The translations under genes were made by a program, and so were the position numbers. DNA of 64,000 nucleotides, taken from Natrinema versiforme JCM 10478 (GTDB taxonomy: Archaea; Halobacteriota; Halobacteria; Halobacteriales; Natrialbaceae). The stretch lies in assembly GCF_000337195.1 (NCBI RefSeq), contig NZ_AOID01000062.1, positions 16,447-80,446 of the forward strand, read 5' to 3'. The notes beneath the pieces were generated by a model, which did not search any database, was not told where the DNA came from, and was given only the letters and a program-made list of their open reading frames with translations. Below are positions 2,259-60,320 of the stretch, piece after piece (the first letter of the stretch is position 1; each line of letters begins with the position of its first letter).

Positions 2259-3542
<1,284 letters not shown>

Positions 3543-5937: not shown

Positions 5938-6954
5938 TCAATCGGGACACTCACACTCACGAGCGCACTGCTGGATCGCAATACCAGCGATGTTCGCGCC
6001 GTACTCGCCGGTTCGACGGATACTGTTGAGGAGGAGGCCGACGACATAGGCCTCGGCAGGATCGTCGTGGGCATAGAGGTCCCGATCGAGCGATCTGAGG
6101 TCTGCCGTCAGTTCGTCCCGTTGGGTAAGCGCCGTTTGTGCCCCCTCGACTCCGGCGTCGGCAAGGATCACGTCCGCAGCGCTATTGATAATCTGTCTGG
6201 AACTCGAGGCCAACGAATCGATCCGGTCCTCGAAGCTCGCCGGTATTGTGACTTCGGGATCGGAGGTAAAGCGAGCGATCCTTTCGGCGTGATCTGCAAT
6301 GCGCTCGAACTGCCGGCAGACGTAGTAGTATTCGAACAGTTCGTCCCGGGTGTACTCGAGTTTCTCGACCTCGTGGAGGTTCGTCAGCGCCCGTCGGAAG
6401 TGGCGAGTCACCATCGCGAACAACTTGTCGGCCTCGTTGTCGCGGTCGATGACGCGCTGTGCCAGCGTCTCGTCGTCGGTCAGGACGGCACTCACCGCAT
6501 CACGGTGCATCCCGAGCATCACGAGGCGGAGGCGAAGCATCGACTTGCGTATGTCGACGTTCTCGGCATCGATGAGGTTCGTCAGCCGTATTTTGGTGTC
6601 ACCGGCTTCCAGCAACTCGAATCCAGAGAGGTTCGCGACCGTGTCCTCGATGATCTCACGATGTTCGGTCGAGTGTCCCGTCCTGTCGACCAGCGTCACC
6701 GTATCGAAGCCGACGGCGTGCAGCGCGTGAATCCACTGTCTGATGGCGCTGTCTGAGTCTGTCGAGACGTCCACAGTCGTCGACCGTGTCTCCGTCGTTC
6801 GGTCCGCCCCCGTCTCGACCAGCAGCGAACCGTCGCCGTTGGGATACAGCGAGAGCGCGGATCCAGCGTCGATGCCGTGTTCCTGTGCCCACGACTTCGG
6901 AAGCGAGATCGTGTACGTCGTCCCCCCGGAGAGCTGAACTTTCCGTGTCTCCAT
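5938..6954 (-). CDS. AbrB-PhoU fusion regulator
   Basis: 338 residues from ATG 6954; longer upstream reading lacks any domain. Residues about 1-45 form an AbrB/SpoVT DNA-binding domain (METRKVQLSGGTTYTISLPKSW). Residues about 120-335 form two PhoU-like three-helix bundles with conserved acidic and Arg positions (for example FERIADHAERIARF). Such haloarchaeal proteins are thought to link phosphate signalling directly to DNA. It is divergent from a second PhoU-type gene at 7155 and lies next to the phosphonate operon, so control of phosphonate uptake is a reasonable inference. The true transport partner is not in the window. Confidence 0.8.
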   Translation of the reverse strand: METRKVQLSGGTTYTISLPKSWAQEHGIDAGSALSLYPNGDGSLLVETGADRTTETRSTTVDVSTDSDSAIRQWIHALHAVGFDTVTLVDRTGHSTEHREIIEDTVANLSGFELLEAGDTKIRLTNLIDAENVDIRKSMLRLRLVMLGMHRDAVSAVLTDDETLAQRVIDRDNEADKLFAMVTRHFRRALTNLHEVEKLEYTRDELFEYYYVCRQFERIADHAERIARFTSDPEVTIPASFEDRIDSLASSSRQIINSAADVILADAGVEGAQTALTQRDELTADLRSLDRDLYAHDDPAEAYVVGLLLNSIRRTGEYGANIAGIAIQQCARECECPD

Positions 6955-7154
6955 ATACGGACCGCCATCGACCAAGAACACCTTAAGGTTGGTATGACTG
7001 GTCCGTGCCGATACCGAGGAGAATATATCAGTATTTATGATTGTATGTGGATGCGTGGTTTGAACCGGGTCCGTTTTGATCCGGTCACGGAGATATATAG
7101 CCGTCCGGACAGTCTGTTGCACAACTCTAACATCGGGAGCCGAGATCAGCGGGT

Positions 7155-8060
7155 ATGTCCCGCCAAACATGGCAGCGCCCGCTCGGGGCGGGCGGCCGTG
7201 ACGCGACGCGTGTCCACATCGTCGAAGCGATCGACAGGACCGCACCCGAAACGAAAGCGGAACTGGCCCGGACGGTCGATATCTCCGAACAGTACCTCTC
7301 GGAGCTATTGCAGGAACTCAAAGCCGCGGACATCGTGCGCAAAGGCTACGTCGTCGATGACGCGGCACTGTATGATAATTCGAGGCATATCTCGAAACTA
7401 TACGGGTCCGATACCAGCGTCACGGAGATGGTCTCGAATGCGGAGAGCGGTGATCACGGAACGGAGGTACTGGAACTGCTCGACCGTCTGGAGTCGGTGA
7501 CTACACAGCAGTACGACGCCGCCCGTGCAGCGTTTCTCGGCGAGGATGTCGAGCAGTCAGCCAAGACCCTTGAGTCGCTCACTAACGAGCGCTACTCGGC
7601 AGTCCTCGCGGAACTGAAGTCGTACACGCTGACGACCGACTGGCCGGGCAACCGCATCGCAGCGGACTTGTCGACTATTGCGACGAACCTCGAAATCGTC
7701 GGGGATCGTGCCTGTTTCATCGCCGCTGTCGTCGACCGCGAGGACACCGACGCGAGCGGTATCGTCGGTGAGCGCATGACTGACATCTTTGCCTCGGGCG
7801 CACGAATTAACGACTACCTCTCGCGGATCTTGTTCGACTGTGAGCTCGAGGTTCACGGACAGCTCCGCGAGCAGGAGGAAATCGTCCATCGAGACCTAGA
7901 CGAACTGTTCGAACTCGTGACGGCATACGATCCGGACATGTACGGCTATCTGGTGACGATTACGCGAGCGCTCGAGCGAGCGATCTACTACTGGGTCGAC
8001 GCGGCGGAGCTGGCGGTGCAAATCCACTCTGGTCTCCAACCGGATCACGTCGAAATTTGA
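7155..8060 (+). CDS. Winged-helix protein with PhoU-like domain
   Basis: 301 residues. Residues about 18-70 read as a winged helix (AELARTVDISEQYLSELLQE, then a wing with DIVRKGY). The rest is helical with PhoU-type features (LEIVGDRACFIAAVV and a closing helix ALERAIYYW). The DNA-binding head is HTH rather than AbrB, unlike the divergent partner at 5938-6954. The two starts are 200 bp apart and share an AT-rich stretch at about 7020-7110 that should hold both promoters. It is likely a phosphate-responsive regulator of the neighbouring phn genes, by context only. Confidence 0.7.
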   Translation: MSRQTWQRPLGAGGRDATRVHIVEAIDRTAPETKAELARTVDISEQYLSELLQELKAADIVRKGYVVDDAALYDNSRHISKLYGSDTSVTEMVSNAESGDHGTEVLELLDRLESVTTQQYDAARAAFLGEDVEQSAKTLESLTNERYSAVLAELKSYTLTTDWPGNRIAADLSTIATNLEIVGDRACFIAAVVDREDTDASGIVGERMTDIFASGARINDYLSRILFDCELEVHGQLREQEEIVHRDLDELFELVTAYDPDMYGYLVTITRALERAIYYWVDAAELAVQIHSGLQPDHVEI

Positions 8061-8308: not shown

Positions 8309-8974
8309 TCAGTCCGAGGGTACCCGATCGGGCTCCGCAGGCGCGTATCTCGAGAGAAAGGTCTCCAGATCGCGGAACGCGTCGAGCCGCTCGGCCAGCG
8401 TCGCGTGATCCCAGTGCCACCACTCGGTCGCCTCGACTCGAGCGGCGACGTCCTCGGAGAACCGTCGGCGGATCGGTTCGGCAGGGACCCCGGCGACGAC
8501 AGTGTAGGCGGGGACGTCCCTGGTGACGACGGCACCGGCACCGACAACCGCACCGTTACCGATAGTGATGCCAGGCAGGACGATTGCACCGTGGCCGATC
8601 CAGACGTCATGACCGATCTCGACCGGCTGATCGGCCCGCCATTCGAATATCGACTCGTCGTCGCTGCCGAGGTCGTACATCGCCGTCCGGTAGGTGAAGT
8701 GGTGGGCCGTCGGGCGGTCGATCGGATGGTTCGTCGGGCCGAGCCGAGCGTCGGCCGCGACGTTGCCGAACTTCCCGACGGTGGCGTAATCGAGTTGGAC
8801 CCGCTCCATGAGATAGGTGTACTCCCCGATGGCCGACTCGTTGAGCCGGGCGTGGGGCCGAACCTCCGTCCATGCTCCGAGTTCGCTCTCGGTGATCGAG
8901 ACGGGGTCGTGCAGCGTTGGTTCCGGCCCGAGCGTGCGCGTCCGATCCGGCCCGTAGTCCTCGTAGTAGGTCAC
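8309..8974 (-). CDS. Phosphonate-cluster hexapeptide acetyltransferase
   Basis: 221 residues. A left-handed beta-helix acyltransferase with hexapeptide repeats ([20 protein letters not shown], then [18 protein letters not shown]) and the usual HP/HH segment for acetyl-CoA and substrate ([12 protein letters not shown]). It matches the transferase subfamily found in C-P lyase clusters, where it is thought to acetylate aminoalkylphosphonates or an intermediate. Its start overlaps the phnE stop (ATGA), so it is the last gene of the phnD-C-E operon. The exact substrate is unknown. Confidence 0.8.
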
Positions 8975-10002
8975 TGTCCGCGTCGCCCCATCGTCGAGGC
9001 GAGGATGTTCCGCGGTGCGTTGGCGAAGGCTTCGATGATGCCCGACGTTTCGACATCGTCATCGTCGCGGAGGGCCGAGCGGACTCGCTGGCTGGCTAAT
9101 TCGACGGAGGCAGCCAGCAGGAAGATGAGGATGATACAGGCCATCATCTCCGTGTAGTTGAACGTCTGGCGCTGGATGTACAGCTCCAGTCCCAGCCCCC
9201 CCGCACCGATGATTCCCAGACCGATGGCGGCCCGGACGTTGTGTTCGAGGTCGAACGCGATCCAAGCGATGAACTGCCGGAATACTTGACTCAGCATCCC
9301 AAAGGAAACGATCTGTGACCGGTTCGCTCCGGTCGAACGGATTCCCTCGATGGGGCCGTCTTCGATCTCTTCGAGTTCATCGGTAAACAGCCGCCCCAGG
9401 TAGCCCGTGGTGTCGACCATGATTGCCAGCGCACCGGTGAAGGGGGTGACGCCCGCGAGCGGAATCAGGATCAGGAACCACACCAGCCCCGGGATGGCAC
9501 GGATGAGGCTCATCGTCCCGCGGAAGACGAAGTTGAACGGGTAGGGGATGACCCGTTCGCTGGACATGACGCCGAAAAACAGCGCCAGTGGCAGGCCCAG
9601 CACTGTTCCGGCGAACGCCACAGCCATCGTAACGAACATCGCGCCCCAGACGATCTGGCCTTCCTCGACGGTGAGAATTAGGTTCTCCTCGATCATGAAG
9701 CTCACGTAGGCACCCAGATCGACAAACGGGATGCCGAAGTACGTCGTCGGCGGGAAATACTCTAGCAACGCCTCATAGAACTGGTCGAGTTGCCCGACCA
9801 GTTCCGCGAGGTTGAACCCGATAACGCGGAGGCTGGCATAGAACAGCAGACCGGTCGCGAGTAATCCGGCCAGCATCCAGAGCCGACGCTTCGTCTTGCG
9901 GCGCTTCATATCCTGCAGTTTCTGTTCGGCCGGTGAGTCGCCGATCTCTCCGTACCCGAAGTACGCCGCGAGTGAGTCCCCTTCGGACGGCGGTGCACTC
10001 AT
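8971..10002 (-). CDS. phnE: Phosphonate ABC transporter permease PhnE
   Basis: 343 residues. An N-terminal cytoplasmic segment is followed by a membrane anchor (residues about 38-58), a periplasm-like loop and a five-helix permease core with the EAA-type loop (about residues 215-235, [16 protein letters not shown]). This is the membrane channel for phosphonate uptake with PhnC and PhnD. The start overlaps the phnC stop by four bases. It is longer than bacterial PhnE (about 260 residues) because of the N-terminal extension, which is common in haloarchaeal versions. Confidence 0.9.
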
Positions 10003-10823
10003 GCTTCGATCCCTCGCTGGGCGTCTTCAGCCGCTCCCTCGCTGGGGTCGTCGCCGATCGCGTCGAGGGCCTCCTCGACGGTTTTTTCCTGGTCGGCTAG
10101 CCCGACGGTTTCGACGCTTCCGTAGAGGTCATCGATCAGCTCGGGCGTGAGTTCGTCGCGGCCGACGTCGAATAGCTTCCGGCCGTCGCGCAGGCCGATG
10201 AACCGGTCGCCGAAGTGAGCGGCGATATTGACTTGGTGGAGGCTCACCAGCGCGGTCACGTCGTGTTCCTTGGCGGCCTTTCGGAGATACCCCATTACCG
10301 TCTCGGCGCTCGAGGGGTCGAGGCTGGCGACCGGTTCGTCGGCGAGCAACAGGCGCGGGTCCTGTACCAGCGCGCGAGCAATGCCGACGCGTTGTTGCTG
10401 GCCGCCGGACATTTGGGAGACCCGCTGGTGGCTCTCGTCCAGCAGGCCGACGGTCTCTAAGGCTTCCAGCGCGCGGAGTTTGTCCTCGCGTGACTGCCAC
10501 TGGAGCATGCTCTTGAGCATCGAGACGCGATTGAGCGACCCCGTGAGCGCGTTGAGGTACGCCGAGACGCCGTCGACGAGGTTGTGCTGCTGAAAGATCA
10601 TACCGATCTCCGTCTGTGACCCCGTGATCGGCTCGTCGTCGAGGGAGATGCTCCCCTCGGTCGGGTCGGTCAATCCGTTGATACACCGCAGCAGCGTCGA
10701 CTTGCCAGCGCCGGATTCCCCTAGTAGGACGGCGAACTCGTCTTCGATCTGGAACGACACGTCTTCCAGAGCCGTCACGTCCCCGTACTGTTTCGACAAG
10801 TTCTCGACTTTGAGTGTACTCAT
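9999..10823 (-). CDS. phnC: Phosphonate ABC transporter ATPase PhnC
   Basis: 274 residues. Walker [10 protein letters not shown], signature SGGQQQR, Walker [14 protein letters not shown] and the H-loop ([10 protein letters not shown]) are all present. The sequence fits PhnC: the segment about residues 75-120 containing [14 protein letters not shown] is typical of this subfamily. It powers uptake through PhnE. It lies 26 bp downstream of phnD and overlaps phnE. The acidic C-terminal tail beyond residue 245 is a halophile-type extension. Confidence 0.93.
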
Positions 10824-10849: not shown

Positions 10850-11878
10850 TTAGGCTGCCGGATCGACACCGACGGTATCCATGCGATCGATGATCGGCTG
10901 GTAGTCCTCGAGCGAGGTGTCTCGCAGCGTGGTAAACGGCAGTTCCTCCTCGTTGTAGTCCTCGGGGTAGTACTGCTTGATCAGGTCCTGATCGGAGTTG
11001 CGCAGTACCTCGCCGATTTCCGCTTTCTTGTCGGAGTCCCAGCTACTGCGTGCATACATCGGCTGTTTCGGAATCGGGAACGACCACCAGATCGGCTCGA
11101 ACTGCGGCGTCTCGGTGCCCATCGTGTCGAGGAAAGAACTGTTTTCGTTGACGCGATCGGGAACCTCGGTTCCCTCGGGTAGGTGCGGGATCCCGTTGCC
11201 GCCCCAAGTGGTCGCGCCGACAGCTTCGCCGTTTGCGAGGCGCTGAAGCGCCTGATCGTGGTCGGTAAACGTCGCGTCGAAGTCGACGGGGTCTTCCTTC
11301 GGCGCGTCGCCGATATCGAGTCCCGCTTCCTGGAGCGTGTACAGCGCGAAGATGGATCCACTGGTCGAGAGCCGATCGGCGAAGGCCCACTCCTTGCCTT
11401 CGATGTCAGTGCGTTCCTGGATATCCGATCCCGGCTGGACCAGCATTAGGGAGAAGTAAAACGCCGAACCCCCCGTCACAGTCGTCCCGTAGACGTCCAT
11501 AATATCGGGCTTAGAGAGGAGCGTGATGTCGTCCATCCCGATCTCGGCCTGCTCGCTTTCGAGGGCGGGTCGGATCGCCGAGTAGTCCGTCGGGACCTGC
11601 ATCTCCACATCGACTCCGTCCACCTCGCCGTTGATGAGGTTCTGGACCGGTTTGTACCGCCGGCGCGCATCGGCCGGCGTGCCCGGTGTCAGTAGCATCG
11701 TAATGGTCTCGGCGCCAGAGTTACTACCGCTGCTGAGACCCAAACATCCCGACAGTCCTGCGGTGGCAGCAAGCGTAGCGCTGCTGGCGATGAATTTCCG
11801 TCGTCCGGTCGATCCCGAATCGGGACCGTTGCTCAGTGCCGATATCTCCGAATCGTCGTTAGCCGAATTCTCGGACAT
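10850..11878 (-). CDS. phnD: Phosphonate-binding lipoprotein PhnD
   Basis: 342 residues from ATG 11878 (another ATG is one codon upstream). The N-terminus has a Tat motif (GRRKFIAS) and a lipobox ending in GLSGC, so it is a membrane-anchored surface protein. The rest is a type 2 periplasmic-binding fold with PhnD features: the LLTPGTPADARRRYKPVQNL start of the first domain, LVQPGSDI, and GATTWGG. It captures phosphonate for PhnE/PhnC and is the first gene of the minus-strand operon. A TATA-like TTATTC lies about 30 bp before the ATG. Confidence 0.92.
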   Translation of the reverse strand: MSENSANDDSEISALSNGPDSGSTGRRKFIASSATLAATAGLSGCLGLSSGSNSGAETITMLLTPGTPADARRRYKPVQNLINGEVDGVDVEMQVPTDYSAIRPALESEQAEIGMDDITLLSKPDIMDVYGTTVTGGSAFYFSLMLVQPGSDIQERTDIEGKEWAFADRLSTSGSIFALYTLQEAGLDIGDAPKEDPVDFDATFTDHDQALQRLANGEAVGATTWGGNGIPHLPEGTEVPDRVNENSSFLDTMGTETPQFEPIWWSFPIPKQPMYARSSWDSDKKAEIGEVLRNSDQDLIKQYYPEDYNEEELPFTTLRDTSLEDYQPIIDRMDTVGVDPAA

Positions 11879-12103
11879 CAACTCATTTCTGGAAGATGGA
11901 CCGAATAACGATTAGCTGTGTAGAGTCCGAATCGTCCGTAGTGACTCCCGCTTTTCCCGGTTCGATACGATACTGCAATCGCTAGTCCGTACTCGTCCGG
12001 ACGTCGTCTCTTGGGGTGGGGAATGAACCCCGAAGGCGAGCGAGCCATAGAGAGTACCGAGCGAATTCTTATGCAGTCGTTTGGACGTGGTTCGACCGAG
12101 TGT
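11879..12103. promoter_or_regulatory. Divergent promoter region of the two phn operons
   Basis: The 225 bp separate phnD (minus) from phnG (plus). A TTATTC box on the minus strand at about 11906-11911 lies near 30 bp from the phnD ATG, and a TTCTTATGC box on the plus strand at about 12067-12075 lies near 30 bp from the phnG ATG. Both fit leaderless transcripts. Any phosphate-response element for both operons should be here. I see no clear dyad that would identify it. Confidence 0.6.
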
Positions 12104-12547
12104 ATGGTTGATCCACACGACAGATCCGATCGGTTCGAGCTGATCGCCGCCTGCGAGGGGGCGACGCTCGCTCAGTTCGCCAACGACGTCCTCGACGGCG
12201 ATCCACCGCTGTCGGTCCGTCAAGAACCGCGGCCACAGTTGTTGATGCAACAGGTGCGCGACCCAGTCGAACGTCGCCCGTTCAACCTCGGCGAGGTTCT
12301 GGTGACACCCGCCGAGGTCGAACTCGAGGGAACACGCGGCTTTGCCATGGTGCCGGGCAAGGGCGAACGGGCCGCGCTCTCGGGCGCGATCGTCGACGCT
12401 GCCGTCGCCGCAGACCACGAGGAAACTCCTGCAATCATCGCCGCCCTCGAAGACGTGGCCGCCCGGCAGCGTGAACAGCGACGCCGGGACTGGTCCCAGA
12501 GCAAACACACTGCCGTCGAGTTCGAGACGATGGAGGGCCAAGAGTGA
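12104..12547 (+). CDS. phnG: C-P lyase subunit PhnG
   Basis: 147 residues from ATG 12104. Upstream ATGs at 12023 and 12071 would add residues with no family match and would place the start on the promoter. The conserved PhnG core is clear: RPQLLMQQVRDPVERRPFNL and GEVLVTPAEVELEG, then RGFAMVPGKGERAALSGAI. PhnG is part of the PhnGHIJ core complex that attaches alkylphosphonate to ribose 1-triphosphate. It is the first gene of a tightly packed operon and overlaps phnH by four bases. Confidence 0.92.
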   Translation: MVDPHDRSDRFELIAACEGATLAQFANDVLDGDPPLSVRQEPRPQLLMQQVRDPVERRPFNLGEVLVTPAEVELEGTRGFAMVPGKGERAALSGAIVDAAVAADHEETPAIIAALEDVAARQREQRRRDWSQSKHTAVEFETMEGQE

Positions 12548-13089
12548 GAGCGCTCGGCCTCGACCCCGTTCACGACACCCGCCGGACGTTCGACGGGCTA
12601 CTAGAGGCGATGAGTCGACCCGGAACCGTCCACGCCGTCCCGGCACCCGCGGACCACGCCGTCGTGGCGACCCTCGTCGATCACGAGGTGACGCTGGCGA
12701 CTGACGACGAGACCCTGCGAGCCGCCCTGAGTGAACAGGGCCGGCTCACACGCGCTCCGTACGGAGAGGCGGACATCGTCCACGCTCGCGAACACACCGA
12801 CTGGGACGTGCGAGACTGTAAGCGCGGCTCGCTGACCGAGCCCAGCGACGGAGCGACCGTCGTCTACCGCGTCGAAACCCTCGACGACGATGCGGACGGT
12901 GGAACCACCTTGGGACTCTCGGGTCCCGGTGTCGATGGGACGACAACGCTGTCGGTGGCCCTGCCCGAGGCGGAACTGTCCGCGCTCGCGGCGACGCACT
13001 CCGACTACCCGCGCGGCGTCGACGCCATCTTCGCCACCGAGGATCGCGTGGCCGCACTCCCGCGGTCGGTACCGATGGAGGTGGTCTGA
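12544..13089 (+). CDS. phnH: C-P lyase subunit PhnH
   Basis: 181 residues, with a GTG start inside the phnG stop (GTGA overlap). PhnH features include FDPVHDTRRTFDGLLEAMSR-like N-terminus (GLDPVHDTRRTFDGLLEAM), a PG turn, FATEDRVAALPRS and a VEV-like end. It is the PLP-transferase-fold scaffold subunit without PLP that dimerises in the C-P lyase core. Length is close to the bacterial enzyme (about 194). Its stop directly abuts the phnI start. Confidence 0.92.
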   Translation: MRALGLDPVHDTRRTFDGLLEAMSRPGTVHAVPAPADHAVVATLVDHEVTLATDDETLRAALSEQGRLTRAPYGEADIVHAREHTDWDVRDCKRGSLTEPSDGATVVYRVETLDDDADGGTTLGLSGPGVDGTTTLSVALPEAELSALAATHSDYPRGVDAIFATEDRVAALPRSVPMEVV

Positions 13090-14223
13090 ATGGGGTACGT
13101 CGCAGTTACTGCTGGGGAGGAACTCATCGAGCGCGCCGAGCAGTTGTTCGAGAAACAGCGCATCGACGACGACGCCGACGATATCGGCGTCGATCAAATC
13201 GAGGGGCAACTCGGCCGCCTCACCGCACAGGCGATGAGTGAGGGAGGACTCTACGCTCCACGACTGGCCGCGCTGGCGGTCAAGCAGGCCCAGGGCGACA
13301 CCGTCGAGGCCGCGTTCCTGTTACGGGCGTATCGCTCGACACTGGAACGATTCGACGAGACGACTACGGTCGACCCGGGCGAGATGATCGCGACCAGGCG
13401 GGTTTCACCGGCGTTCAAGGACATCCCCGGTGGCCAGATCCTCGGCGCGACCAAGGACTACACCCAGCGACTGCTGGATTTCGATCTCGCCGACGGTAGC
13501 CCCGAGGACCCCACCGCCGAGTGGGAGCTCGACGACGAGGGTGATCCCGAACGGCTGACTAATGTCACGGAACTGCTCCGAGAAGAAGGGCTGTTACACG
13601 AACCCGACGAACCGGCGGTCGACGAACCCAACGACACGACACGCGAGTCGATCACACATCCGCCCGAGCGCGACGAGGTTCTCCAAGAACTGGCCCGCGG
13701 CGAGACCGGCGCAGTGACCGCGCTGGGCTACTCCGCGCTGCGGGGGTACGGCCAGGTCCACCCGACGCTGGCGGAGGTCCGGGTCGGACGCCTGCCCGTC
13801 CGGATCGAACATCCGTACACCGGTGCGGAGGTGACTGTCACCCACACTGAGGTCACCGAGTCCGAGGCGGTCGTCCCCGTCTACGAGAAACGCGAAGACC
13901 CGCAGTTCGCGTTCGGGTACGGGCTGACTTTCGGCCGCAACGAACGCAAGGCCATCGGAATGACCATCCTGGACGCCTCGATCCAACTCGACGGCGACGA
14001 CGAACCCGCCGAGAACGCCGAGTTCGTCCTCGACACGGTCGACGGGACGGACTCCTTCGGCTTCATCGAACACCTCAAACTCCCCCACTACGTCACGTTC
14101 CAGTCGATTCTGGACCGTATCCGCGCCATCAGGGAGCGCAAGGGGTTGAGCGAGCAGAGCCGCGTCGAAACCGATGAACGACCTGCCGACTCAGCGGTCG
14201 CGGGAACGAGTGACGATGACTGA
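13090..14223 (+). CDS. phnI: C-P lyase subunit PhnI
   Basis: 377 residues. The family pattern MGYVAVTAGEELIERAE opens the protein, followed by the conserved ASxxL-like helix AAFLLRAYRSTLER, ARRVSPAFKDIPGGQILG and the late block FGRNERKAIGMTILD. PhnI is the nucleosidase-like subunit that, with PhnG, H and L, forms the ribose-phosphonate triphosphate. The start follows the phnH stop without a gap. An acidic, low-complexity tail follows residue 345. Confidence 0.93.
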   Translation: MGYVAVTAGEELIERAEQLFEKQRIDDDADDIGVDQIEGQLGRLTAQAMSEGGLYAPRLAALAVKQAQGDTVEAAFLLRAYRSTLERFDETTTVDPGEMIATRRVSPAFKDIPGGQILGATKDYTQRLLDFDLADGSPEDPTAEWELDDEGDPERLTNVTELLREEGLLHEPDEPAVDEPNDTTRESITHPPERDEVLQELARGETGAVTALGYSALRGYGQVHPTLAEVRVGRLPVRIEHPYTGAEVTVTHTEVTESEAVVPVYEKREDPQFAFGYGLTFGRNERKAIGMTILDASIQLDGDDEPAENAEFVLDTVDGTDSFGFIEHLKLPHYVTFQSILDRIRAIRERKGLSEQSRVETDERPADSAVAGTSDDD

Positions 14224-15280
14224 ACACACCACCACCGACGACGTATTGCCCGACGAGGGCACGCCCGTTGCGACCGACTCCGTCGATGCCGCCCTCGAGT
14301 CCTTGGACAGTGACGGCTTGGAAGGGTACAATTACGCGTACCTCGACGAACACACCAAACGCGAGGTCCGCCGCTCAGTACTGAAAGCCGTCGCCATCCC
14401 CGGCCACCAGGTGCCCTACGCCTCCCGGCCGATGCCGCTGGCCCGCGGCTGGGGCACCGGCGGTATTCAGGCCTCGCTGTCGATCCTCGGGCCCGAGGAC
14501 ACCTTCAAGGTGATCGATCAGGGCGCGGACGAGAGCATCAACGCCGCCAATATCCGGCGACTGGCGGAGAACACCGCCGACGTACCGACGACGACCGACA
14601 CCACTGAGGCGGACCTGATCCAGAGTCGCCACCGCATCCCCGAGGAGGTGCTGACCGACGAGCAGCGCCTGGTGTTGCAGGTGCCGATCACCGACGCGCT
14701 GCGGACGGTCGACCCATCGGACGCGGCCAACCGTCGGCGACACGCTCACAAGAACTACGGGAAAATGTGGGTCCACCTCTACGAGAACGTCGTCGAGTAC
14801 GGCGAGATCAAGATCTCCTCTCGGTATCCGACGATGGTCGCCGGGCGCTACCTGATGGACCCCTCGCCGATCCCGCGATGGGACGTGCCGAAACTCGATC
14901 ACGCGGACCATCTCACGGTGCTGGCTGCGGGCCGGGAGGCGCGTCTCTACGCCGTCCCGCCACACACCGAGGTCGAACCACTGGCCTTTGACGACCGGCA
15001 GTTCACCGTCGAACGCTTTCCCGAGCAGGCCTGCCACGCCTGCGGATCGACCGACACCTACCTCGTCGAGGTCTCGGAAGAGGCCACCGAGGACGGCGAC
15101 AACGCCTTCGAGACCCGCTACGCCTGCAACGACGCGAGTTTCTGTGCGAAGCGCCGCAAGAACCCCGACCTCCCGAAGGATCATCACCTCGAGGAGGCGG
15201 TCGATTGGGGGCCGGGGACGCCCGACGCGCCGACGGATGACGCCGGAACTCCGGTCGAACAGGGAGGTGCCGGGGAATGA
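14216..15280 (+). CDS. phnJ: C-P lyase radical SAM subunit PhnJ
   Basis: 354 residues from ATG 14216, chosen because it overlaps the phnI stop; an earlier ATG at 14174 lies well inside phnI. PhnJ cleaves the carbon-phosphorus bond using a 4Fe-4S cluster and a thiyl radical. The four conserved cysteines are present: Cys273, Cys276, Cys304 and Cys310 in ACHAC and RYACNDASFC, with the same CX2C and CX5C spacing as the E. coli enzyme. The C-terminal tail is rich in acidic residues and proline. All core catalytic residues seen argue for an active enzyme. Confidence 0.95.
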   Translation: MTEHTTTDDVLPDEGTPVATDSVDAALESLDSDGLEGYNYAYLDEHTKREVRRSVLKAVAIPGHQVPYASRPMPLARGWGTGGIQASLSILGPEDTFKVIDQGADESINAANIRRLAENTADVPTTTDTTEADLIQSRHRIPEEVLTDEQRLVLQVPITDALRTVDPSDAANRRRHAHKNYGKMWVHLYENVVEYGEIKISSRYPTMVAGRYLMDPSPIPRWDVPKLDHADHLTVLAAGREARLYAVPPHTEVEPLAFDDRQFTVERFPEQACHACGSTDTYLVEVSEEATEDGDNAFETRYACNDASFCAKRRKNPDLPKDHHLEEAVDWGPGTPDAPTDDAGTPVEQGGAGE

Positions 15281-16107
15281 CGCTACTGGAAGCCCGCGAC
15301 TTGCAGACGCGCTACGGACCCGGCTGTCCCCGCTGTGTCGAGTCGACCGGCGATCGCGCGGGGACGAACCAGTGTCCCCACTGCGGAAGTGTCGTCGCCT
15401 GTGCCGACGCCGATCTCAGCGTCGAGGCCGGGGAGGTGGTGGGCATCGTCGGCGAGTCCGGATCCGGCAAATCCAGCCTCGCAGAACTGCTTGCACTCGA
15501 GCGCGATGACGACGCCACGACTGCCGGCGAGGTTCACTACGCGGGCCACGACGGCAATCTGCTGGAGGTGGACTACGAAACGCGCCACGACCTCCGTACG
15601 GGCGAGATCGCACTCGTCCACCAGCACATCCGCGACGGCCTGAACCTCGAGTTCACCGGCGGCGGCAACGTCGCGGAGAAACTGCTCTCGGCCGGCCAGC
15701 GTTCCTACGAGGATGTCCGTGCTCGCATTCGGGAACTCTTCGATGAGACGGAGATCCCGGTTGCTCGGATGGACGATCCCACCAGCACGTACTCCGGGGG
15801 GATGCAGCGGCGCGTCCAGATCGCCCGCGCACTGGCGACCGATCCGGATCTGGTCGTGCTGGACGAACCGACCACGGGGCTCGACGTGAGCGTCCAGGCC
15901 CGCGTCCTGGACATGTTCCGACGCGTCCAGCGCGAGGAGGGCGTCGCCGCCATCGTGGTCTCACACGACCTGAGCGTCGTCCGCCTGCTCGCCGATCGGA
16001 CCCTGGTAATGCGCCACGGCCGCATCGTCGAGTCCGGTCTCACCGATCGCATCATGGAAGACCCGCACCACGAGTACACCCAGACTCTAATCAATTCAGT
16101 CATATGA
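15277..16107 (+). CDS. phnK: C-P lyase ATPase PhnK, with four-cysteine insertion
   Basis: 276 residues. An ABC ATPase with Walker A GESGSGKSS, signature YSGGMQRRVQIA and Walker B LVVLDEPTTGLDVS. PhnK docks on the PhnGHIJ core. Residues 17-36 hold two CXXC pairs (GCPRC and QCPHCG) before the ATP site, a zinc-ribbon-like insertion not found in E. coli PhnK but known in some other lineages. It overlaps phnJ and phnL by four bases at each end. The VESGLTDRIMEDPHHEYTQ tail is typical of PhnK. Confidence 0.93.
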   Translation: MTLLEARDLQTRYGPGCPRCVESTGDRAGTNQCPHCGSVVACADADLSVEAGEVVGIVGESGSGKSSLAELLALERDDDATTAGEVHYAGHDGNLLEVDYETRHDLRTGEIALVHQHIRDGLNLEFTGGGNVAEKLLSAGQRSYEDVRARIRELFDETEIPVARMDDPTSTYSGGMQRRVQIARALATDPDLVVLDEPTTGLDVSVQARVLDMFRRVQREEGVAAIVVSHDLSVVRLLADRTLVMRHGRIVESGLTDRIMEDPHHEYTQTLINSVI

Positions 16108-16841
16108 CAGTCCTGTCCGTCGACGGTCTCTCCAAAACCTTCGACATGCACGTGCTCGGCGACACGCAGGTCGTCGGCCTCGACGACGTATCGTTCGACG
16201 TCCGCGAGGGCGAGTTCCTCGCCGTCGTCGGAGAATCCGGCAGCGGCAAGTCCTCGCTGCTGAAGTGTCTGTACCGCACGTACGATCCCAGCTCGGGCGA
16301 GGTCGTCTACCACAGCCCTGACGGCGACATCGATCTGGCCTCGTGTCCCGACCGAACGGTAATCGACCTCCGGGGGGACAGCATCGGCTACACCTCACAG
16401 TTCCTCGACGAGATTCCCCGGGTCCCCGCGGTCGACGTGGTCGCTCGGCCGCTGATCGAACAGGGAGTCGATCGGGAGGACGCACGGTCGGTCGCTCGTG
16501 ACCTACTGTCGGCGCTCTCGGTACCCGAGTCGCTGTGGCAGGCGTACCCGGCGACGTTCTCCGGCGGCGAGCGCCAGCGAGTGAACCTCGCGCAGGCGCT
16601 CGCGCCGAAACCGGATTTGCTCCTCCTGGACGAACCGACCAGCGCGCTCGACCCGGACACCCGCCGAGCCGCGATCGATCTCCTTTCGACGTATCTCGGG
16701 TCAGAAACGACGGTCGTCGGCGTCTTCCACAACACGGACGTAGTCGACGCCGTTGCGGACCGCGTGGTTGTCCTGGACGACGGTCGCCTCCAGCGCGTCG
16801 TCCCCACCGAGGCGTACGACGAGGAGGTGGTGCTCGGATGA
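16104..16841 (+). CDS. phnL: C-P lyase ATPase PhnL
   Basis: 245 residues. An ABC ATPase with Walker A GESGSGKSS, signature FSGGERQRVNLAQAL and Walker B LLLLDEPTSALDP. The LHVLGD-like N-terminal strand (MHVLGDTQVVGLDDVSF) and FLDEIPRVPAVDVVA identify it as PhnL rather than PhnK. It takes part in the triphosphate transfer step and docks on PhnK. The start overlaps the phnK stop and the end overlaps the phnM start. Confidence 0.93.
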   Translation: MTVLSVDGLSKTFDMHVLGDTQVVGLDDVSFDVREGEFLAVVGESGSGKSSLLKCLYRTYDPSSGEVVYHSPDGDIDLASCPDRTVIDLRGDSIGYTSQFLDEIPRVPAVDVVARPLIEQGVDREDARSVARDLLSALSVPESLWQAYPATFSGGERQRVNLAQALAPKPDLLLLDEPTSALDPDTRRAAIDLLSTYLGSETTVVGVFHNTDVVDAVADRVVVLDDGRLQRVVPTEAYDEEVVLG

Positions 16842-18001
16842 GCTCGACGGTCCAGACGACCGAAGAGAGCGTCGCGGTCGTTGGCGGACGCGTCGTCACG
16901 CCCGAGGCCGTCCTCGAGGGCGGCGTTCGTATCGAGGGCGATCGTATCGTCGAAGTAGGGGATGTCGATGGTGACGCCGATACCGTAATCGACGCCGACG
17001 GGCGGCTCGTCCTGCCCGGTCTGGTCGATCTCCACGGCGACGACATCGAGAATCATCTCCATCCGCGCTCGGGAGCGCGAATGGCGCTTCCGATGGCGCT
17101 GGCCTCGGCTGACCGCGCGAACGTTGCGGCAGGAATCACGACGAAGTTTCACGCCATCTCCTTCGAACTCGACGAGGAGGCCGATCGGTCGCCCGAACTC
17201 GCGGCGACGTTGACAGCAGCTATCACCGCTGCTGACGACCTGCTCGTAGACCATCGTCTGCACGCCCGCTGTGAAGTCACCCAGAAACGCTGTGTCGACG
17301 CGGTTCTCGAAGTCGTCGAGAACGGCGACGCCGACCTCGTTTCGGTGATGAGCCACATCCCCGGTAAGGGCCAGTTCCGCAATATCGAGGCGTTCAAACG
17401 GTACTACGAGAACGCCAACGAGCACACGGCCGAGGAGGCCGAGGAGATGATCGAGGAGCGGACTGACATCGCGATGACGACGCTGCGCGAGCGCGTCGAC
17501 GAGATCGTTGCGGGTGCCCACGACGCCGGTGCGGTAACCGCCTCTCACGACGACGAGAATCCCGCGGAAGTCGAGCGATTGGCCGATGCCGGCGTGGACA
17601 TCACGGAGTACCCAATCACATTAGAGACGGCCGAGCGCGCTGCGGAACTCGGTATGACGACCGCGATGGGCGCGCCAAATCTCGTCCGCGGAGAGAGCCA
17701 GTGGGGCAACCTCTCGACGGCCGACGCCATCGAGGCCGGCGTCGTCGACACCCTCGTGGCCGACTACCATCCGCCGTCGCTGCTCGCGGCCGCGTTCGTC
17801 GACACTGGTGAGTCCCTTCCCGAGCGAGTCAACCGCGTCAGCGCCAATCCAGCAGACGCGGTCGGTTTCGACGATCGCGGTCGGATCGAAGTCGAGGCGC
17901 GTGCTGACCTGCTCGTCGTCGACCGCGATCCGACGCCGACGGTCGCCCGCGCACTCGTCGCTGGCCAGCCAGTGTACCGAGCCGATCAGGGGGTTCGATG
18001 A
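16838..18001 (+). CDS. phnM: Alkylphosphonate triphosphate pyrophosphohydrolase PhnM
   Basis: 387 residues from ATG 16838, overlapping the phnL stop; the frame is open much further upstream but only as a shadow of phnL. An amidohydrolase-fold enzyme that removes pyrophosphate from ribose-phosphonate triphosphate. Metal-binding motifs are visible: LHGDDIENHLHPR near residue 60, VMSHIPGKGQF, TASHDDE and GAPN. Together with PhnG-L it gives a complete C-P lyase pathway as far as C-P bond cleavage. The usual partners phnN and phnP do not follow. Confidence 0.93.
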   Translation: MSSTVQTTEESVAVVGGRVVTPEAVLEGGVRIEGDRIVEVGDVDGDADTVIDADGRLVLPGLVDLHGDDIENHLHPRSGARMALPMALASADRANVAAGITTKFHAISFELDEEADRSPELAATLTAAITAADDLLVDHRLHARCEVTQKRCVDAVLEVVENGDADLVSVMSHIPGKGQFRNIEAFKRYYENANEHTAEEAEEMIEERTDIAMTTLRERVDEIVAGAHDAGAVTASHDDENPAEVERLADAGVDITEYPITLETAERAAELGMTTAMGAPNLVRGESQWGNLSTADAIEAGVVDTLVADYHPPSLLAAAFVDTGESLPERVNRVSANPADAVGFDDRGRIEVEARADLLVVDRDPTPTVARALVAGQPVYRADQGVR

Positions 18002-18804
18002 CCGCGAGCGTCGGCGCAGCGATGGATATCCGCTTCGGACAGACCGTCGACGCGTTCATGCGCTACGTCACCGACCTCGGCTTCGACCACGTGGAGTTCA
18101 AACGCGAGTACCTCGCGGGCCATCCCGACACGCCCGGTCCAGGGCGGATTCGGGAACTGTCCGACCGCTACGGTGTCAGCGTCACCTATCACGCCCCCTT
18201 CCGAGACTGGAACATCGGTAGTTACGACGAGGTGGTCCGGCAGGACTCCGTCGAACGAGTCAAGCGGACGCTCGACGACGCTGCCGAGGCCGGGGCTGGG
18301 GCCGTCGTCGTCCACGGCGGCTCGGTCCCGAAGCGCTACCCCGAGTGGGTCCGCGACCGCGCGAAACAGAACGCGCTGCGCTCGCTGGCGGAGTGTGCCG
18401 AGTACGCGCAACTGGTCGGCGTCCCGCTGTGTCTGGAGAACCAACCCATCAACGAGCAGAAGCGGCGCTACACGACGACGCCAGCGGATCTCGCGTCGAT
18501 GCGGCGTCCCATCGACGTGCCACCACAGTACCTCGGCGTCACGCTCGACGTGGGCCATGCGAAGGTCAACGGCTACGATTGGCGCGCATTCGTCGAGGAG
18601 TTCGGCCACCGGATCCAGATCTGTCACCTTCACGATAACGACGGCACCGCCGACCGGCACGAGCCGTTTCCCGACTACGAGTCCGTCGTCGAGGCGGTTC
18701 CGGCGGACTACTTTGTCTTCGAAATGAAGTCCGTCAGCGACCTGGCGACAAGCGTCGGCACCGACATAACGCCCCCAGAAACGGAGCTGACGGCCCACGA
18801 ATGA
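17998..18804 (+). CDS. TIM-barrel isomerase/endonuclease-IV-like protein at end of phn operon
   Basis: 268 residues, starting in the phnM stop codon (ATGA), so it is translated with the C-P lyase genes. It has the AP-endonuclease-2/xylose-isomerase-like TIM barrel: VTYHAPF, VVVHGGS, LCLENQP, LGVTLDVGHAKV and IQICHLHDND. His, Glu and Asp at these strand ends are the usual divalent-metal ligands. It sits where phnN or phnP would be expected. It may process the ribosyl product of PhnJ (5-phosphoribosyl 1,2-cyclic phosphate), but this is inference only. Confidence 0.8.
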   Translation: MTASVGAAMDIRFGQTVDAFMRYVTDLGFDHVEFKREYLAGHPDTPGPGRIRELSDRYGVSVTYHAPFRDWNIGSYDEVVRQDSVERVKRTLDDAAEAGAGAVVVHGGSVPKRYPEWVRDRAKQNALRSLAECAEYAQLVGVPLCLENQPINEQKRRYTTTPADLASMRRPIDVPPQYLGVTLDVGHAKVNGYDWRAFVEEFGHRIQICHLHDNDGTADRHEPFPDYESVVEAVPADYFVFEMKSVSDLATSVGTDITPPETELTAHE

Positions 18805-39017: not shown

Positions 39018-40469
39018 TCAGTCACCTCCCGGCGTCAGAGCGGGTTCATTCGTTTTTCCTCTCCGAATGAACTGCATGAGTAGGACACTCCCGATAGTAA
39101 GACCAGCCATGAGGGCGAGACCGCTGATTGCCCGCGGGTCCTCGATATTGGTCGCGAAGTAATATCCCATAATGAAGACCATCACGGTCGGAATCACGTA
39201 TTTGATGATCGGATCCCAATAAGAGCCAATATAGACATCGCTGTTATGATTTAAGTCGAGGATACGAGCGCGTTTCGAATCAATCACCCAGCCGACAAGG
39301 ATGAGTATCATCAACGTCGCAAGCGGGAGTCCGAAGTTGCCGAACATAAAGTCCATCCATCCGAGGAACTCAGAGGAATACGCGCTCGGAATTCCGAGCA
39401 ACCACCAAGCCCCGACAACTGCTATCACGGACTGAGTACGCGTCAGACGCGTCTCTTCTTTGACTGTCGTTACCCCGACCTCTGTGATACCGAGGCCGGA
39501 CGAGTATGTAGCAAACAGGAAGCCAAGGAAGAACAGAAGGCCCCAGATGTAGCCTCCGGTCATACTCGGGAAGATGGAAACGAGCGAAACGAAGGTCAAC
39601 TCAGCGCCTGTAGTCGGTTCTAGACCGAACGCGAAGACGGCAGGAAACACGGTAAAGATGGCAAGTAGACCAATGCTCGTATTCCCAACTGCGGTAATCA
39701 AGCCGCCTCCGAGCGGGACATCGTCGCTCTCTCCTAGGTAGCTACCGTAAGTGAGTGCAATACCCCATCCCAGCCCGGTTGAGAAGAGTGCCTGACCAAG
39801 AGCAGCGATCCACGTATTTGCATCGGTCATGTACTGCCACTCAGGGTTGAACGCGAACGCGAGCCCTTCCATTGCCCCAGGAAGCGTTAGCCCTTTGATA
39901 GCGACTGCGGATAGCGTCACCACCAAAGCCGGGATCATCCATTTGACGACTCGTTCAATACCATCCGATATACCGAAAAGTAACACAAATCCGACTAGGA
40001 CTGCAACCAATGTGTGCAGTCCCACGACTAAAAGAGGAGACCCAGAGAACGCGGCCCAGAACGCCGTGGGATCGAACCCAGGTTGATAGAACGTTCCCAG
40101 TACCGCGTGCGCCAGATAGTAGATTGTCCACGCGATTACCGGAGCATAATAAGACATCAACCCGATATTGACGATGACGACTACGAGGCCCAATCCTTCG
40201 GACCACCCTTCTCCGAGGAAGTTCTTAAACGCACCAATGACTCCACTCTGGGTGTACCGGCCGAGAAACGTTTCTGCCATTAATCCAGGGACAGCGATGA
40301 GGTACAGTAGGGCGAGATATATAACCAAAAACGCCCCACCTCCGTTCATTCCAGCAACATAAGGCATACGCCAGATGTTACCTGACCCCACAACAGCCCC
40401 AACCAGTGCCATAACGAAACCAAATCGTGTTGCCCACTGATCACGGGCAAGTCCTGTATCCTCTTCCAT
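39018..40469 (-). CDS. NSS-family Na+-dependent amino-acid transporter
   Basis: 483 residues from ATG 40469 (an upstream ATG at 40541 adds a non-conserved stretch). It has the NSS signature GSGNIWRMPYVAGMNGGGAF in helix 1 and 11-12 helices overall. It is only loosely similar to the NSS gene at 113. The small membrane gene and proline racemase downstream suggest uptake of proline or hydroxyproline. GC content is low compared with the core genes. Confidence 0.9.
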   Translation of the reverse strand: MEEDTGLARDQWATRFGFVMALVGAVVGSGNIWRMPYVAGMNGGGAFLVIYLALLYLIAVPGLMAETFLGRYTQSGVIGAFKNFLGEGWSEGLGLVVVIVNIGLMSYYAPVIAWTIYYLAHAVLGTFYQPGFDPTAFWAAFSGSPLLVVGLHTLVAVLVGFVLLFGISDGIERVVKWMIPALVVTLSAVAIKGLTLPGAMEGLAFAFNPEWQYMTDANTWIAALGQALFSTGLGWGIALTYGSYLGESDDVPLGGGLITAVGNTSIGLLAIFTVFPAVFAFGLEPTTGAELTFVSLVSIFPSMTGGYIWGLLFFLGFLFATYSSGLGITEVGVTTVKEETRLTRTQSVIAVVGAWWLLGIPSAYSSEFLGWMDFMFGNFGLPLATLMILILVGWVIDSKRARILDLNHNSDVYIGSYWDPIIKYVIPTVMVFIMGYYFATNIEDPRAISGLALMAGLTIGSVLLMQFIRRGKTNEPALTPGGD

Positions 40470-57591: not shown

Positions 57592-59148
57592 ATGAGCGTG
57601 ATCATCTACGGACTCGCGGCCGTCATCATCGCGATGCTGGCCATCGGGTTCTACGTGTCTCGGAAGATCAAGGGTGACAGCGTCAACTACATCGTCGCGG
57701 GTCGGGGGCTAATCCTCCCGCTGGCCGCGGCGACGTTGATGGCCCAGTCGCTCGACTCGAACGCTACCCTCGGGAATACGGACCTCGTTTCGTCCGCCGG
57801 CTTCTGGGCCGGTGCGGCCCTCCCGGTCGGGTTGGCGCTCTGTCTCTTCCTCACCGGGCTGTTCTTCGCCAAGCCGATGAACCGGATGAATCTCACGACG
57901 CTGCCGGACTTCTTCCGCCGGAAGTACGGCCGCACCGTCGAAATAGTCGCGAGTCTCATCATGTCGGTCGCCTACGCGTTCCTGTTGGCCGGGAACCTCG
58001 TCGCCGGCGGCTACCTCTTCCAGATTTTCGTCGGGACGAGCTTCGAGCTGGGGGTCTTCATCATCGCCGCGCTCGTCCTCTCCTATACGCTCGCCGGCGG
58101 CCTCTTCGCAGTCGCATACACGGACGTCCTACAGGCCGGCGTCGCGTTCGTCGGGTCCATCGCGCTCATCGTCTACATCACGACGCAGTACGGCATCACC
58201 GTCCCCGCCGGAATGGGGCCCTCGAACTTGGGACAACTCACTGACCCGAGTCAAGGGGCGTACATCAATCTCGCCACGATCATCGCCCTCGGGCTGGGCG
58301 ACATCGTCGCCATCGACTTCATGGAACGAGTCTTTGCGGCCGACAGCCCGGAAACCGCACGTAAAGCTTGCTTCATCGGTGCCGCCGGCACCCTCATAAT
58401 CGGCGTGCCGTTCTCCGTCGTCGCGCTCTCCGCGGGCCCGATCCTCGCCTCGCTGGGCGTCGAAGCCGGTAACCAAGCGGTGCTCTACTCCCTGTTACAG
58501 AACGCGGTCCCGCCGTGGCTTGCGTCGATCGTTATCGCGGGAATCGTCGCCGCCTCGTTCTCGACGAGCGATGGGGCGATACTGGGCACCTCCTCCGTCA
58601 TCGCTCGAAATATCGGCGGCATTCGCGTCGACGAGAGCGCGCCCGCAGCGGCGGACGGCGGCACGGACGAGGGCTTCCTCGGGACCGAGAGCGATAAACT
58701 ACTCACCGTGACTCGGCTCATGGCCATCCCCATCACGCTGCTCGGTATTTTCTTCGCGCTCCGAGTCTCCGCCACCGGGATGTTGCTCGTCCTGGCGTTC
58801 GATATCATGCTCGCCGGCGCGTTCGTGCCGCTGGTGATGGGTATCTACTGGTCGGAGATGGCGAACACGCCCGCAGCGCTCATCTCCATGCTCGCCGGGT
58901 CGGGGACGCGTCTGTTTTTCTTTGTGCTCCTGCCGACGACGTACGCCTACGAGAACACGCTGTTTTACATTCCGAACGACGTCTTTACCGCTGCCTTCGA
59001 CGGCTTGCCGACGTTCATCGCGGCGGGGGTGAGTTTGGTCAGCTTCGTCGTGGTCGCCTACGCCACGAAAGACTCCTACACGGCACGGTCTCTCAACCGA
59101 GAGGGACGACGCACCATCGTCGCGGGCGGCGACAACGATGAAGAGTAA
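57592..59148 (+). CDS. Sodium:solute symporter (SSS family)
   Basis: 518 residues with about 13 helices. The core signature is clear: DSVNYIVAGRGL, MAQSLDSNATLGNTDLVSSA, PDFFRRKYGR and the LeuT-type repeats. It has a cytosolic loop near residue 345 (ESAPAAADGGTDEG). An unusual AT-rich direct repeat (TTGTATATATTGTATATATG) lies at about 57381-57400. The gene precedes the AbrB-PhoU regulator and agmatinase on the same strand, so a guanidino or polyamine compound is a possible substrate. Confidence 0.9.
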   Translation: MSVIIYGLAAVIIAMLAIGFYVSRKIKGDSVNYIVAGRGLILPLAAATLMAQSLDSNATLGNTDLVSSAGFWAGAALPVGLALCLFLTGLFFAKPMNRMNLTTLPDFFRRKYGRTVEIVASLIMSVAYAFLLAGNLVAGGYLFQIFVGTSFELGVFIIAALVLSYTLAGGLFAVAYTDVLQAGVAFVGSIALIVYITTQYGITVPAGMGPSNLGQLTDPSQGAYINLATIIALGLGDIVAIDFMERVFAADSPETARKACFIGAAGTLIIGVPFSVVALSAGPILASLGVEAGNQAVLYSLLQNAVPPWLASIVIAGIVAASFSTSDGAILGTSSVIARNIGGIRVDESAPAAADGGTDEGFLGTESDKLLTVTRLMAIPITLLGIFFALRVSATGMLLVLAFDIMLAGAFVPLVMGIYWSEMANTPAALISMLAGSGTRLFFFVLLPTTYAYENTLFYIPNDVFTAAFDGLPTFIAAGVSLVSFVVVAYATKDSYTARSLNREGRRTIVAGGDNDEE

Positions 59149-59270
59149 CTAGCAGTCCACTTTTTATCGCATATACGCGTACGAACAGTCACCTGTAGAT
59201 ATATATGGTTCGAAGTCGTTTTGTTATTCGTCCCAATGACACTGGTTAGTACTCTTTTGAGGTGTGGCGA

Positions 59271-60320
59271 ATGAGCGGAAACGACCTTCGAATCCGTCGC
59301 AAGGCCCAGCAGTTGGGCTCCTCGACGCTCGCGGTAACGATGCCCGCGGAGTGGACCCATCGCCACGATCTCACGAAAGGTGACGAACTGATCGTCCAAC
59401 GCGACGAAAACGGCAATTCGCTGCTGGTCACGCCGAATCAACCCGCGATCGAAGACGCTGAAACGACGATTAACGCCGACGCGATGAGCACGGACGCGCT
59501 CTCTCGAGCCGTCATCACCCAATACGTCCTCGGACGCGGACTGGTTCGGATCGAAGCGGAGGAGGCGCTGGAAGCCAAACACTATGACGCGGTACTCGAG
59601 GCCGAACGCCGGCTGATGGGGCTCGGTATCGTCGAGGAATCGCCGACCCACATCACCGTCCGCTGCTCGGTCGATCCCGGCGACTTCGAGCTCCCGACCC
59701 TGCTCGGTCGATTAGGACGCACGGAAGCGACGATCCGCTCGAGTGCCGTCTCGGCTCTGTTGAACGGCGACACCGATGCCGCTCGGCGAGCGCGCGACCG
59801 GGGGTCACAACTGGAGAAGTTGTTCTCCCTCTTTCTCAGACTCGTCTTCACGACCTACCGCAACCCGCGGCTCAACCAGTCGGTCGGGGTCGGAACCGGA
59901 TTTCCGCTCATCGGCTACCGCTCTGCCGCACAAGACGTGTCGTTGATGGCCGGCATCGCCGACGATATCGCGACGATCGCTGCAGACCGAGTGACTGACC
60001 CCCTCGAGGGCGATGTCGCAGACGACATCGAAGTAGTCCACGGGGCCCTCGATACGGCCGCCGAACAGGTCCGCGACGCCGTCATCGATCCGGATTACGA
60101 GCAGGTGACCGATGCCCGCGCGAGCCTCCAGCGTGTCGACGATCACCTGGAAACGGCTGTCGATCGCCTCGAGGCAGAACGGCCCGAACCGCTGCTCGCG
60201 CTGAACCGAGTGCATCTCCTCTTCGAACGGAGTTCGCGCCACGCCGGCGATACGCTCGATGTCGCGACCCATCTCGCGTTCCGGGAGAGCCCGGACGTGG
60301 TCACCCACAACGGTGATTAA
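59271..60320 (+). CDS. AbrB-PhoU fusion regulator, second copy
   Basis: 349 residues from ATG 59271 (GTG 59262 is also in frame). The N-terminus is an AbrB/SpoVT domain (LRIRRKAQQLGSSTLAVTMP), followed by a linker and PhoU-like helical bundles (SAAQDVSLMAGIADDIATIA, then LLALNRVHLLFERSSRHAGD). The layout matches the regulator at 5938-6954. It lies between a Na+ symporter and an agmatinase-like gene. It is more likely to regulate these neighbours than phosphate uptake. Confidence 0.8.
   Translation: MSGNDLRIRRKAQQLGSSTLAVTMPAEWTHRHDLTKGDELIVQRDENGNSLLVTPNQPAIEDAETTINADAMSTDALSRAVITQYVLGRGLVRIEAEEALEAKHYDAVLEAERRLMGLGIVEESPTHITVRCSVDPGDFELPTLLGRLGRTEATIRSSAVSALLNGDTDAARRARDRGSQLEKLFSLFLRLVFTTYRNPRLNQSVGVGTGFPLIGYRSAAQDVSLMAGIADDIATIAADRVTDPLEGDVADDIEVVHGALDTAAEQVRDAVIDPDYEQVTDARASLQRVDDHLETAVDRLEAERPEPLLALNRVHLLFERSSRHAGDTLDVATHLAFRESPDVVTHNGD

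Follow-up and report, generated by a model that had tools for sequence, protein, structure and literature searches.

A divergent pair of PhoU-domain proteins with different DNA-binding heads as candidate regulators of the haloarchaeal phosphonate cluster

Introduction

In bacteria, PhoU is a partner of kinases and transporters, and we know of no DNA-binding head on the bacterial protein. The regulators linked to bacterial clusters for phosphonate uptake and C-P lyase are of another kind, the PhnF-type GntR proteins. Signaling by bacterial PhoU runs through PhoR (PMC9239213). Haloarchaeal PhoU proteins with an N-terminal DNA-binding domain have been described in synteny with the phosphate-transport operon, for example Haloferax volcanii PhoU2, HVO_2374 (PMC6267482). 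A phosphonate uptake and lyase cluster is also on record for a haloarchaeon, Haloquadratum walsbyi, in a paper whose available text has no occurrence of the word phoU (PMC1544339).

The window analyzed here, a stretch of 64,000 nucleotides from Natrinema versiforme, holds two PhoU-type genes that face each other beside the phosphonate (phn) genes. Which genes do these two proteins, RegA and RegB, control, and which signal do they read? Titles and abstract openings in the open-licence literature yielded no paper on regulators of a haloarchaeal phn cluster. DNA-binding PhoU proteins beside pst and the haloarchaeal phosphonate cluster itself were already known; a winged-helix-PhoU partner and a pair dedicated to phn were not found in the open-licence literature searched.

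Results and discussion

Domain structure of RegA and RegB

The original prediction of two divergent genes, one for AbrB plus PhoU and the other for a winged helix plus PhoU, was confirmed, by Pfam for RegA and by predicted structure for RegB. In RegA (5938..6954, minus strand), both domains scored above their cut-offs in Pfam profile searches, the AbrB/MazE head with 33.5 bits (PF04014, cut-off 24.7) and the PhoU domain with 57.5 bits (PF01895, cut-off 23.5). The start codon kept in the aligned relatives was the ATG at 6954 (minus strand, METRKVQLSGG). This ruled out a longer start, and the 435-aa ORF was rejected as an upstream over-extension. The AlphaFold2 model of RegA (pLDDT 68.3) placed an AbrB-type head at about residues 1-50 and a six-helix PhoU domain at about 130-335, with an additional alpha/beta domain (about 57-129) between them. 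The PhoU part aligned with PhoU 4q25_B at a VIA Z of 18.2. The middle domain showed a likeness to Alba and Smr domains (Z 8.1-9.1), in what is a low-confidence model.

RegB (7155..8060, plus strand) was less evident at the sequence level. Both of its domains fell below threshold, HTH_24 with 20.6 bits (cut-off 21.9) and PhoU with 18.5 bits (cut-off 23.5). At E <= 0.05, the members of the RegB family matched HTH_24 in 7 of 7 cases and PhoU in 5 of 7. A sequence search of the RegB profile against solved structures gave no PhoU match, and the PhoU domain was visible in the fold only. The AlphaFold2 model, built with 7 sequences and of middling confidence (pLDDT 63.7), had a winged helix at residues 13-77, followed by six helices at 97-295. 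Over 193 residues, these helices aligned with PhoU 1t72_B at a VIA Z of 20.6 and 2.6 Å. The first nine VIA ranks were all PhoU or PhoU-like entries from several bacteria (Z 17.5-20.6), and winged helix-turn-helix structures aligned over residues 13-77 (Z 7.7-9.8). Foldseek gave a weaker result, with a probability of 1.00 and a best E of only 4e-3. The model shows RegB with a predicted PhoU fold of two three-helix bundles. Both proteins would share the six-helix fold of bacterial PhoU (1t72, 1sum, 4q25), each with a different DNA-binding head.

The two families differed greatly in their distribution. RegA-type proteins were present in all 242 genomes of the class that we compared, and RegB was missing from 222 of them. 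The paired RegA proteins were 40-100% identical to that of the window, the lowest value being that of G160 (40%). Unpaired RegA-type proteins reached up to 55% identity, and the paired protein of G160 was no closer than some of these. From this ubiquity, and from the position of G160, RegA appears to be a specialized member of a general family. Two further relatives (52-54% identity) lay near 8500-9900 in L116 and L117, stretches that gave no RegB or phn matches; the one in L117 adjoined amidohydrolase-like and permease-like ORFs, named by eye. These relatives are possibly a further specialization of the family. The named relatives of RegB, six of which were found in the named collection, were haloarchaeal records. 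A scan of 196 genomes of the phylum for RegB outside the class returned three genomes of the class itself and two weak matches to the PhoU region only.

The common promoter gap

The two genes lie 200 bp apart, and their common gap (6955..7154) proved to be AT-rich, as had been predicted. Its GC content was 0.505 against 0.604 for the window, and 6.6% of 200-nt windows were as low. We searched the gaps of up to 26 loci by EM motif discovery with one site per sequence, and four conserved blocks were found, one of which, the RegB promoter block, belonged to this gap. The RegA side had a further block of its own, TCATAnnAAnnnTAAG (6981..6998, minus strand), 27-44 nt before the RegA ATG. The RegB promoter block had the form TAtaTAnncGTCCGgACagTCtGTgG across the loci and was represented in the window by TATATAGCCGTCCGGACAGTCTGTTG (7094..7119, plus strand), the second copy of an element, E2, that recurs at the phn promoters. 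A putative TATA box of RegB followed at 7125..7134 (plus strand), 21-30 nt before its ATG. In one locus, L104, the RegB match overran its start across a stop, so the gap length given for that locus is too short.

Organization of the phn cluster

A phosphonate import operon had been predicted near the pair, and this was borne out. On the minus strand beside RegB stood a phosphonate-cluster hexapeptide transferase (8309..8974; TIGR03308, 308.6 bits, cut-off 201.65), the phnE permease (8971..10002; 233.2 bits, cut-off 216.7), the phnC ATPase (9999..10823; 260.6 bits, slightly below the cut-off of 266.1) and the substrate-binding protein phnD (10850..11878, with its ATG at 11878). PhnD scored 104.2 bits with PF12974, above the cut-off, and the NCBIfam phnD models remained below theirs. 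Opposite to this operon, the C-P lyase operon ran along the plus strand from phnG to phnM and a TIM-barrel gene. It comprised phnG (12104..12547, starting MVDPHDRSDR), phnH (12544..13089), phnI (13090..14223), the C-P lyase core phnJ (14174..15280), the ATPases phnK and phnL (15277..16841), phnM (16838..18001) and the closing TIM-barrel gene (17998..18804; PF01261 and synteny). PhnH, phnI, phnJ and phnM were assigned by profile matches, phnG by its operon position, and phnK and phnL by operon position from ORFs and synteny. For phnG we took the start at 12104. A TTG start at 12011 was rejected since the promoter block would fall inside the ORF; further ATGs occurred in the phnG frame at 12023 and 12071.

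The ORF list gave no noticeable PhnN or PhnP between phnD and the TIM-barrel gene. The TIM-barrel gene followed phnM in 21 of the 23 loci holding phnM, the other two stretches stopping inside phnM, and its predicted product could take the place of PhnP. A TnpB-like protein (2493-3542; PF07282, 75.3 bits) was encoded close to the regulators.

Two absences had also been predicted. That of a PhnF-type repressor held for contig C62, where a GntR head (PF00392) had no match. That of a phosphate transporter held for Pit-type proteins (PF01384), which had no match on the contig, and for the ORFs between 1 and 20 kb, inspected by eye; another contig, C29, did carry PstS-like and PstB-like genes. The pair resembles PhnF in being tied to the phn cluster and differs from it in having a PhoU sensor, with no GntR head on C62.

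Co-occurrence and synteny among haloarchaeal genomes

If the pair serves the phn genes, the two should be inherited together. We searched the 242 genomes with RegB, PhnJ and RegA (the window being C62:16447-80446 of genome G000). RegB was found in 20 genomes and PhnJ in 19, and all 19 genomes with PhnJ carried RegB (Fisher p 2.6e-27, uncorrected for relatedness). The PhnJ genomes spanned 12 genera. Within the genus of the window the distribution was patchy, with both genes in 5 of 15 genomes and neither in the other 10. In each of the 20 RegB genomes, the best RegA match of the genome was the divergent gene beside RegB.

The pair also stayed close to the phn genes, at a distance of no more than 1.4 kb in 17 of the 19 phnJ genomes. 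The exceptions were G164, with about 9 kb between them, and G037, in which phnJ was about 118 kb away and the pair stood beside a partial transferase copy. Only one genome, G076, had RegB without phnJ. Its pair was intact beside short transferase and TIM-barrel matches, and inspection by eye (L103:10900-11200) gave the impression that the phn cluster had been lost except for the tails of these two genes. Among named relatives, phnE, phnC and phnD together with phnG to phnM adjoined the pair in L085, L086, L087 and L089; L089 was without a transferase match, and the stretches of L086 and L087 stopped inside phnM. In the Haloquadratum walsbyi J07HQW1 MAG (L088), the match to RegA was partial; RegB and the transferase were present, and a fragment of phnE ran into N. 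Another MAG (L084) had the pair with no phn genes in the 10 kb downstream. In G160 (L108:8650-19300), the usual phnDCE genes were missing beside the pair, and a different, distantly related transporter followed the TIM-barrel gene.

RegA and RegB appeared to have evolved together. Over the 22 loci with all three genes in one stretch, which left out L084, L088, L101 and L103, their pairwise identities correlated with an r of 0.946, and the correlation of the pair with PhnJ was weaker (r 0.76). L088 was also left out of the RegA alignment. The joint RegA-RegB tree grouped loci of different families, L098 with L099 and L095 with L096. These mixed pairings suggest transfer of the regulator locus as a unit.

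Such close co-inheritance with catabolic genes is what would be expected of a substrate-specific regulator, and RegA and RegB might be substrate-induced regulators that respond to a phosphonate, or to an intermediate of the C-P lyase pathway, instead of to phosphate. However, the solved PhoU proteins that they match are named for phosphate transport, and we consider this reading rather doubtful.

Conserved elements at the phn promoters

Two of the other three blocks of the motif search lay against the two phn operons. The D box, GGACTCTACnCAGnCAAnnGTTATT (11902..11931, minus strand), abutted the core promoter of phnD and was found in all 22 loci given, with a lowest score of 17.6; L108 had been left out before this run. 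The G box, ATAGAGAGTACCnAGnGAAnnCTTATG (12045..12073, plus strand), abutted the core promoter of phnG. This block had the form ATAGAGAGTACCnAGnGAAnnCTT and was present in 22 of 23 loci. It was missing from L108, the locus that also lacks phnDCE at that place. D and G boxes had a common frame, TAC-n-CAG-n-SAA-nn-STTA, to which neither box of the window was a perfect match, each having a mismatch. Applied to the opposite side, the two box models picked out the partner box in register as their best match in 17 and 16 of 22 loci; a stricter score test of this sharing was passed in just 10 and 12 of 23. Both boxes ended in a TATA-like stretch, approximately 25-36 nt ahead of the adopted start codons. 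Since 72% of the transcripts of H. volcanii are leaderless (PMC6560208), D and G can be read as putative regulator boxes set against the basal promoter.

The distance between the D and G boxes was 111-114 bp in 13 loci, 123-124 in two, 153 in one and 163 in five, with 347 in L086. These distances seem to step by about 10 bp, as for a helical register. This is suggestive only, as the tree contains few independent changes and L086 does not fit.

The remaining block, E2, lay within the phnD-phnG gap and had the sequence AGTCCGTACTCGTCCGGAC (11984..12002, plus strand). It was a direct repeat whose consensus, GTCCGTACTCGTCCGGAC, has two half sites 10 bp apart; in 21 of 22 loci, the distance from its start to the G box downstream was 62 nt. 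The E2 model had been trained solely on the gaps of phn. It matched the RegA-RegB gap in 23 of 26 loci (shuffle p <= 0.05), failing in L106, L107 and L109. Most of these matches coincided with the RegB promoter block; 5 of the 23 were on the minus strand, and that of L100 lay elsewhere in the gap. As a control, one of nine other gaps of the window matched, the one before a PhoU-family gene at 59262. A combined E2 pattern, itself written from the copies in the phn gap and the RegB promoter, had those two as its only exact matches in the 4.19-Mb genome. There were three one-mismatch matches besides, and one match for a reversed control. An E2-like match at 39494-39510 was set aside as chance; it falls inside a transporter-like ORF.

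The PhoU-family gene of the control gap (59262-60320) scored 22.7 bits for PhoU, below the cut-off, and had an AbrB-like start by eye. It stood between solute symporter-like (57592-59148) and agmatinase/arginase-like (60482-61591) genes, also named by eye, and the E2-like match before it was marginal (6 of 300 shuffles).

The D/G pattern could not be extended beyond phn. Its core was found in 4 of 26 RegA-RegB gaps and was rejected there. A wider regulon was likewise rejected, with four one-mismatch matches in the genome against two for the reversed pattern; the four were the two phn boxes, a site in an ORF judged transposase-like by eye, and a site in a stretch without a clear promoter. At three mismatches the pattern was useless, with 20 matches in the window against 18.8 expected by chance.

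These elements bear on whether the pair regulates phn at all. It might merely lie near phn and regulate other genes, as would be allowed by the pairs that lack phn (L084 and G076) or lie apart from it (G037 and G164). Against this stand the E2 element common to phn and regulator gaps, the co-occurrence in all 19 genomes and the remnants of phn next to the G076 pair, and we regard it as highly improbable.

They also bear on the direction of control. PhnF offers a model of repression by occlusion and release. By analogy, RegA and RegB could block the TATA regions of the two phn operons under ample phosphate and leave them on starvation. This is compatible with the position of the D and G boxes, directly beside the putative TFB/TATA region or overlapping it, and E2 at the RegB promoter would fit negative autoregulation. 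On the other hand, the E2 of the phn gap occupies an activator-like position upstream of the G box, and the pho-boxes of H. salinarum are cited as essential for the upregulation of two pst transporters (PMC6560208). A pair of repressors is a possibility that we take seriously and still lean against.

Relation to the pst promoters

DNA-binding PhoU proteins were known from pst loci. The pair could belong to a general haloarchaeal Pho response and act on pst as well as on phn. RegA resembles H. volcanii PhoU2 in joining a DNA-binding head to PhoU, and it has relatives near PstS-like genes: of 20 regions of 4.1 kb that were compared, 5 had an AbrB-PhoU paralogue close to such a gene, as did the genome of the window. 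We compared seven of nine pstS upstream stretches, two (L118 and L141) having been left out beforehand as mostly coding. At the 5% level, the D/G core reached none of the seven promoters and E2 reached one, a promoter of the window's genome, marginally (8 of 200 shuffles). By eye, the promoters of the pstS-like genes had a different box, CATAGCAnnGTA, against the TATA region. With RegB also missing from most genomes that have RegA-type proteins, a role of the pair in a general Pho response seems improbable.

Taken together, the different pst box and the near-absence of the phn elements from these seven promoters suggest that the elements are confined to phn and the genes of its regulators. For the same reasons the pair looks dedicated to phn and not like one branch of a common Pho regulon. 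RegA differs from the pst-linked haloarchaeal PhoU proteins in sitting with phn, in having a winged-helix-PhoU partner and in the boxes of its cluster, which are unlike the pst box.

Three pstS-like promoters of the window's genome (L111, in the 60 nt or so before 9476, 15096 and 16572) shared the block CATAGCATC(G/A)TA immediately before the TATA region, which by eye is a candidate pho-box.

A model of the phn switch

RegA and RegB are, in our judgment, probably dedicated regulators of phn that act through the D and G boxes and E2. This degree of confidence applies to that core claim, with which the repression and phosphonate-sensing alternatives overlap. Of the predicted two-factor switch reading phosphate, the part that concerns a phn switch is well supported by the co-occurrence, the synteny and the common E2. 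Phosphate as its signal we infer from the PhoU domains and from the work on haloarchaeal pst.

The two proteins would be one-component regulators, each with its own DNA-binding head on a PhoU sensor domain. The simplest model has one regulator per type of element. One would bind E2 in the phnD-phnG gap and at the RegB promoter, so that RegB would be autoregulated together with phn, and the other would bind D and G, the boxes set against the TATA regions of the two divergent phn operons. Our tentative assignment gives E2, which has a palindromic half site, to the winged helix of RegB. The D and G boxes would go to the AbrB head of RegA, because the pst promoters beside AbrB-PhoU genes have a box in the same place. 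On phosphate shortage, the PhoU domains may change state and phn would be activated, and the position of the boxes directly upstream of the TATA region would suit contact with the basal factors. We favor activation on shortage because of the position of the elements and the precedent of the pst pho-boxes, with repression as the main rival.

A more elaborate and speculative form of this model, which we hold to be somewhat unlikely, has RegA and RegB joined through their PhoU domains. Such a heteromer would use the winged helix to contact E2 and the AbrB head to contact the D and G boxes, bridging both phn promoters in helical register. If true, archaea would have a one-component phosphorus switch in which a common sensor fold carries two different DNA heads.

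In salt ponds, a correlation between C-P lyase genes and the release of methane is on record; the organisms concerned need not be haloarchaea (PMC8692437). For haloarchaeal phosphonate use, the analysis names specific candidate regulators and candidate binding sites. In these proteins, PhoU would be tied directly to DNA through two different heads, and two genes with a few short DNA blocks would make up a system that is immediately testable.
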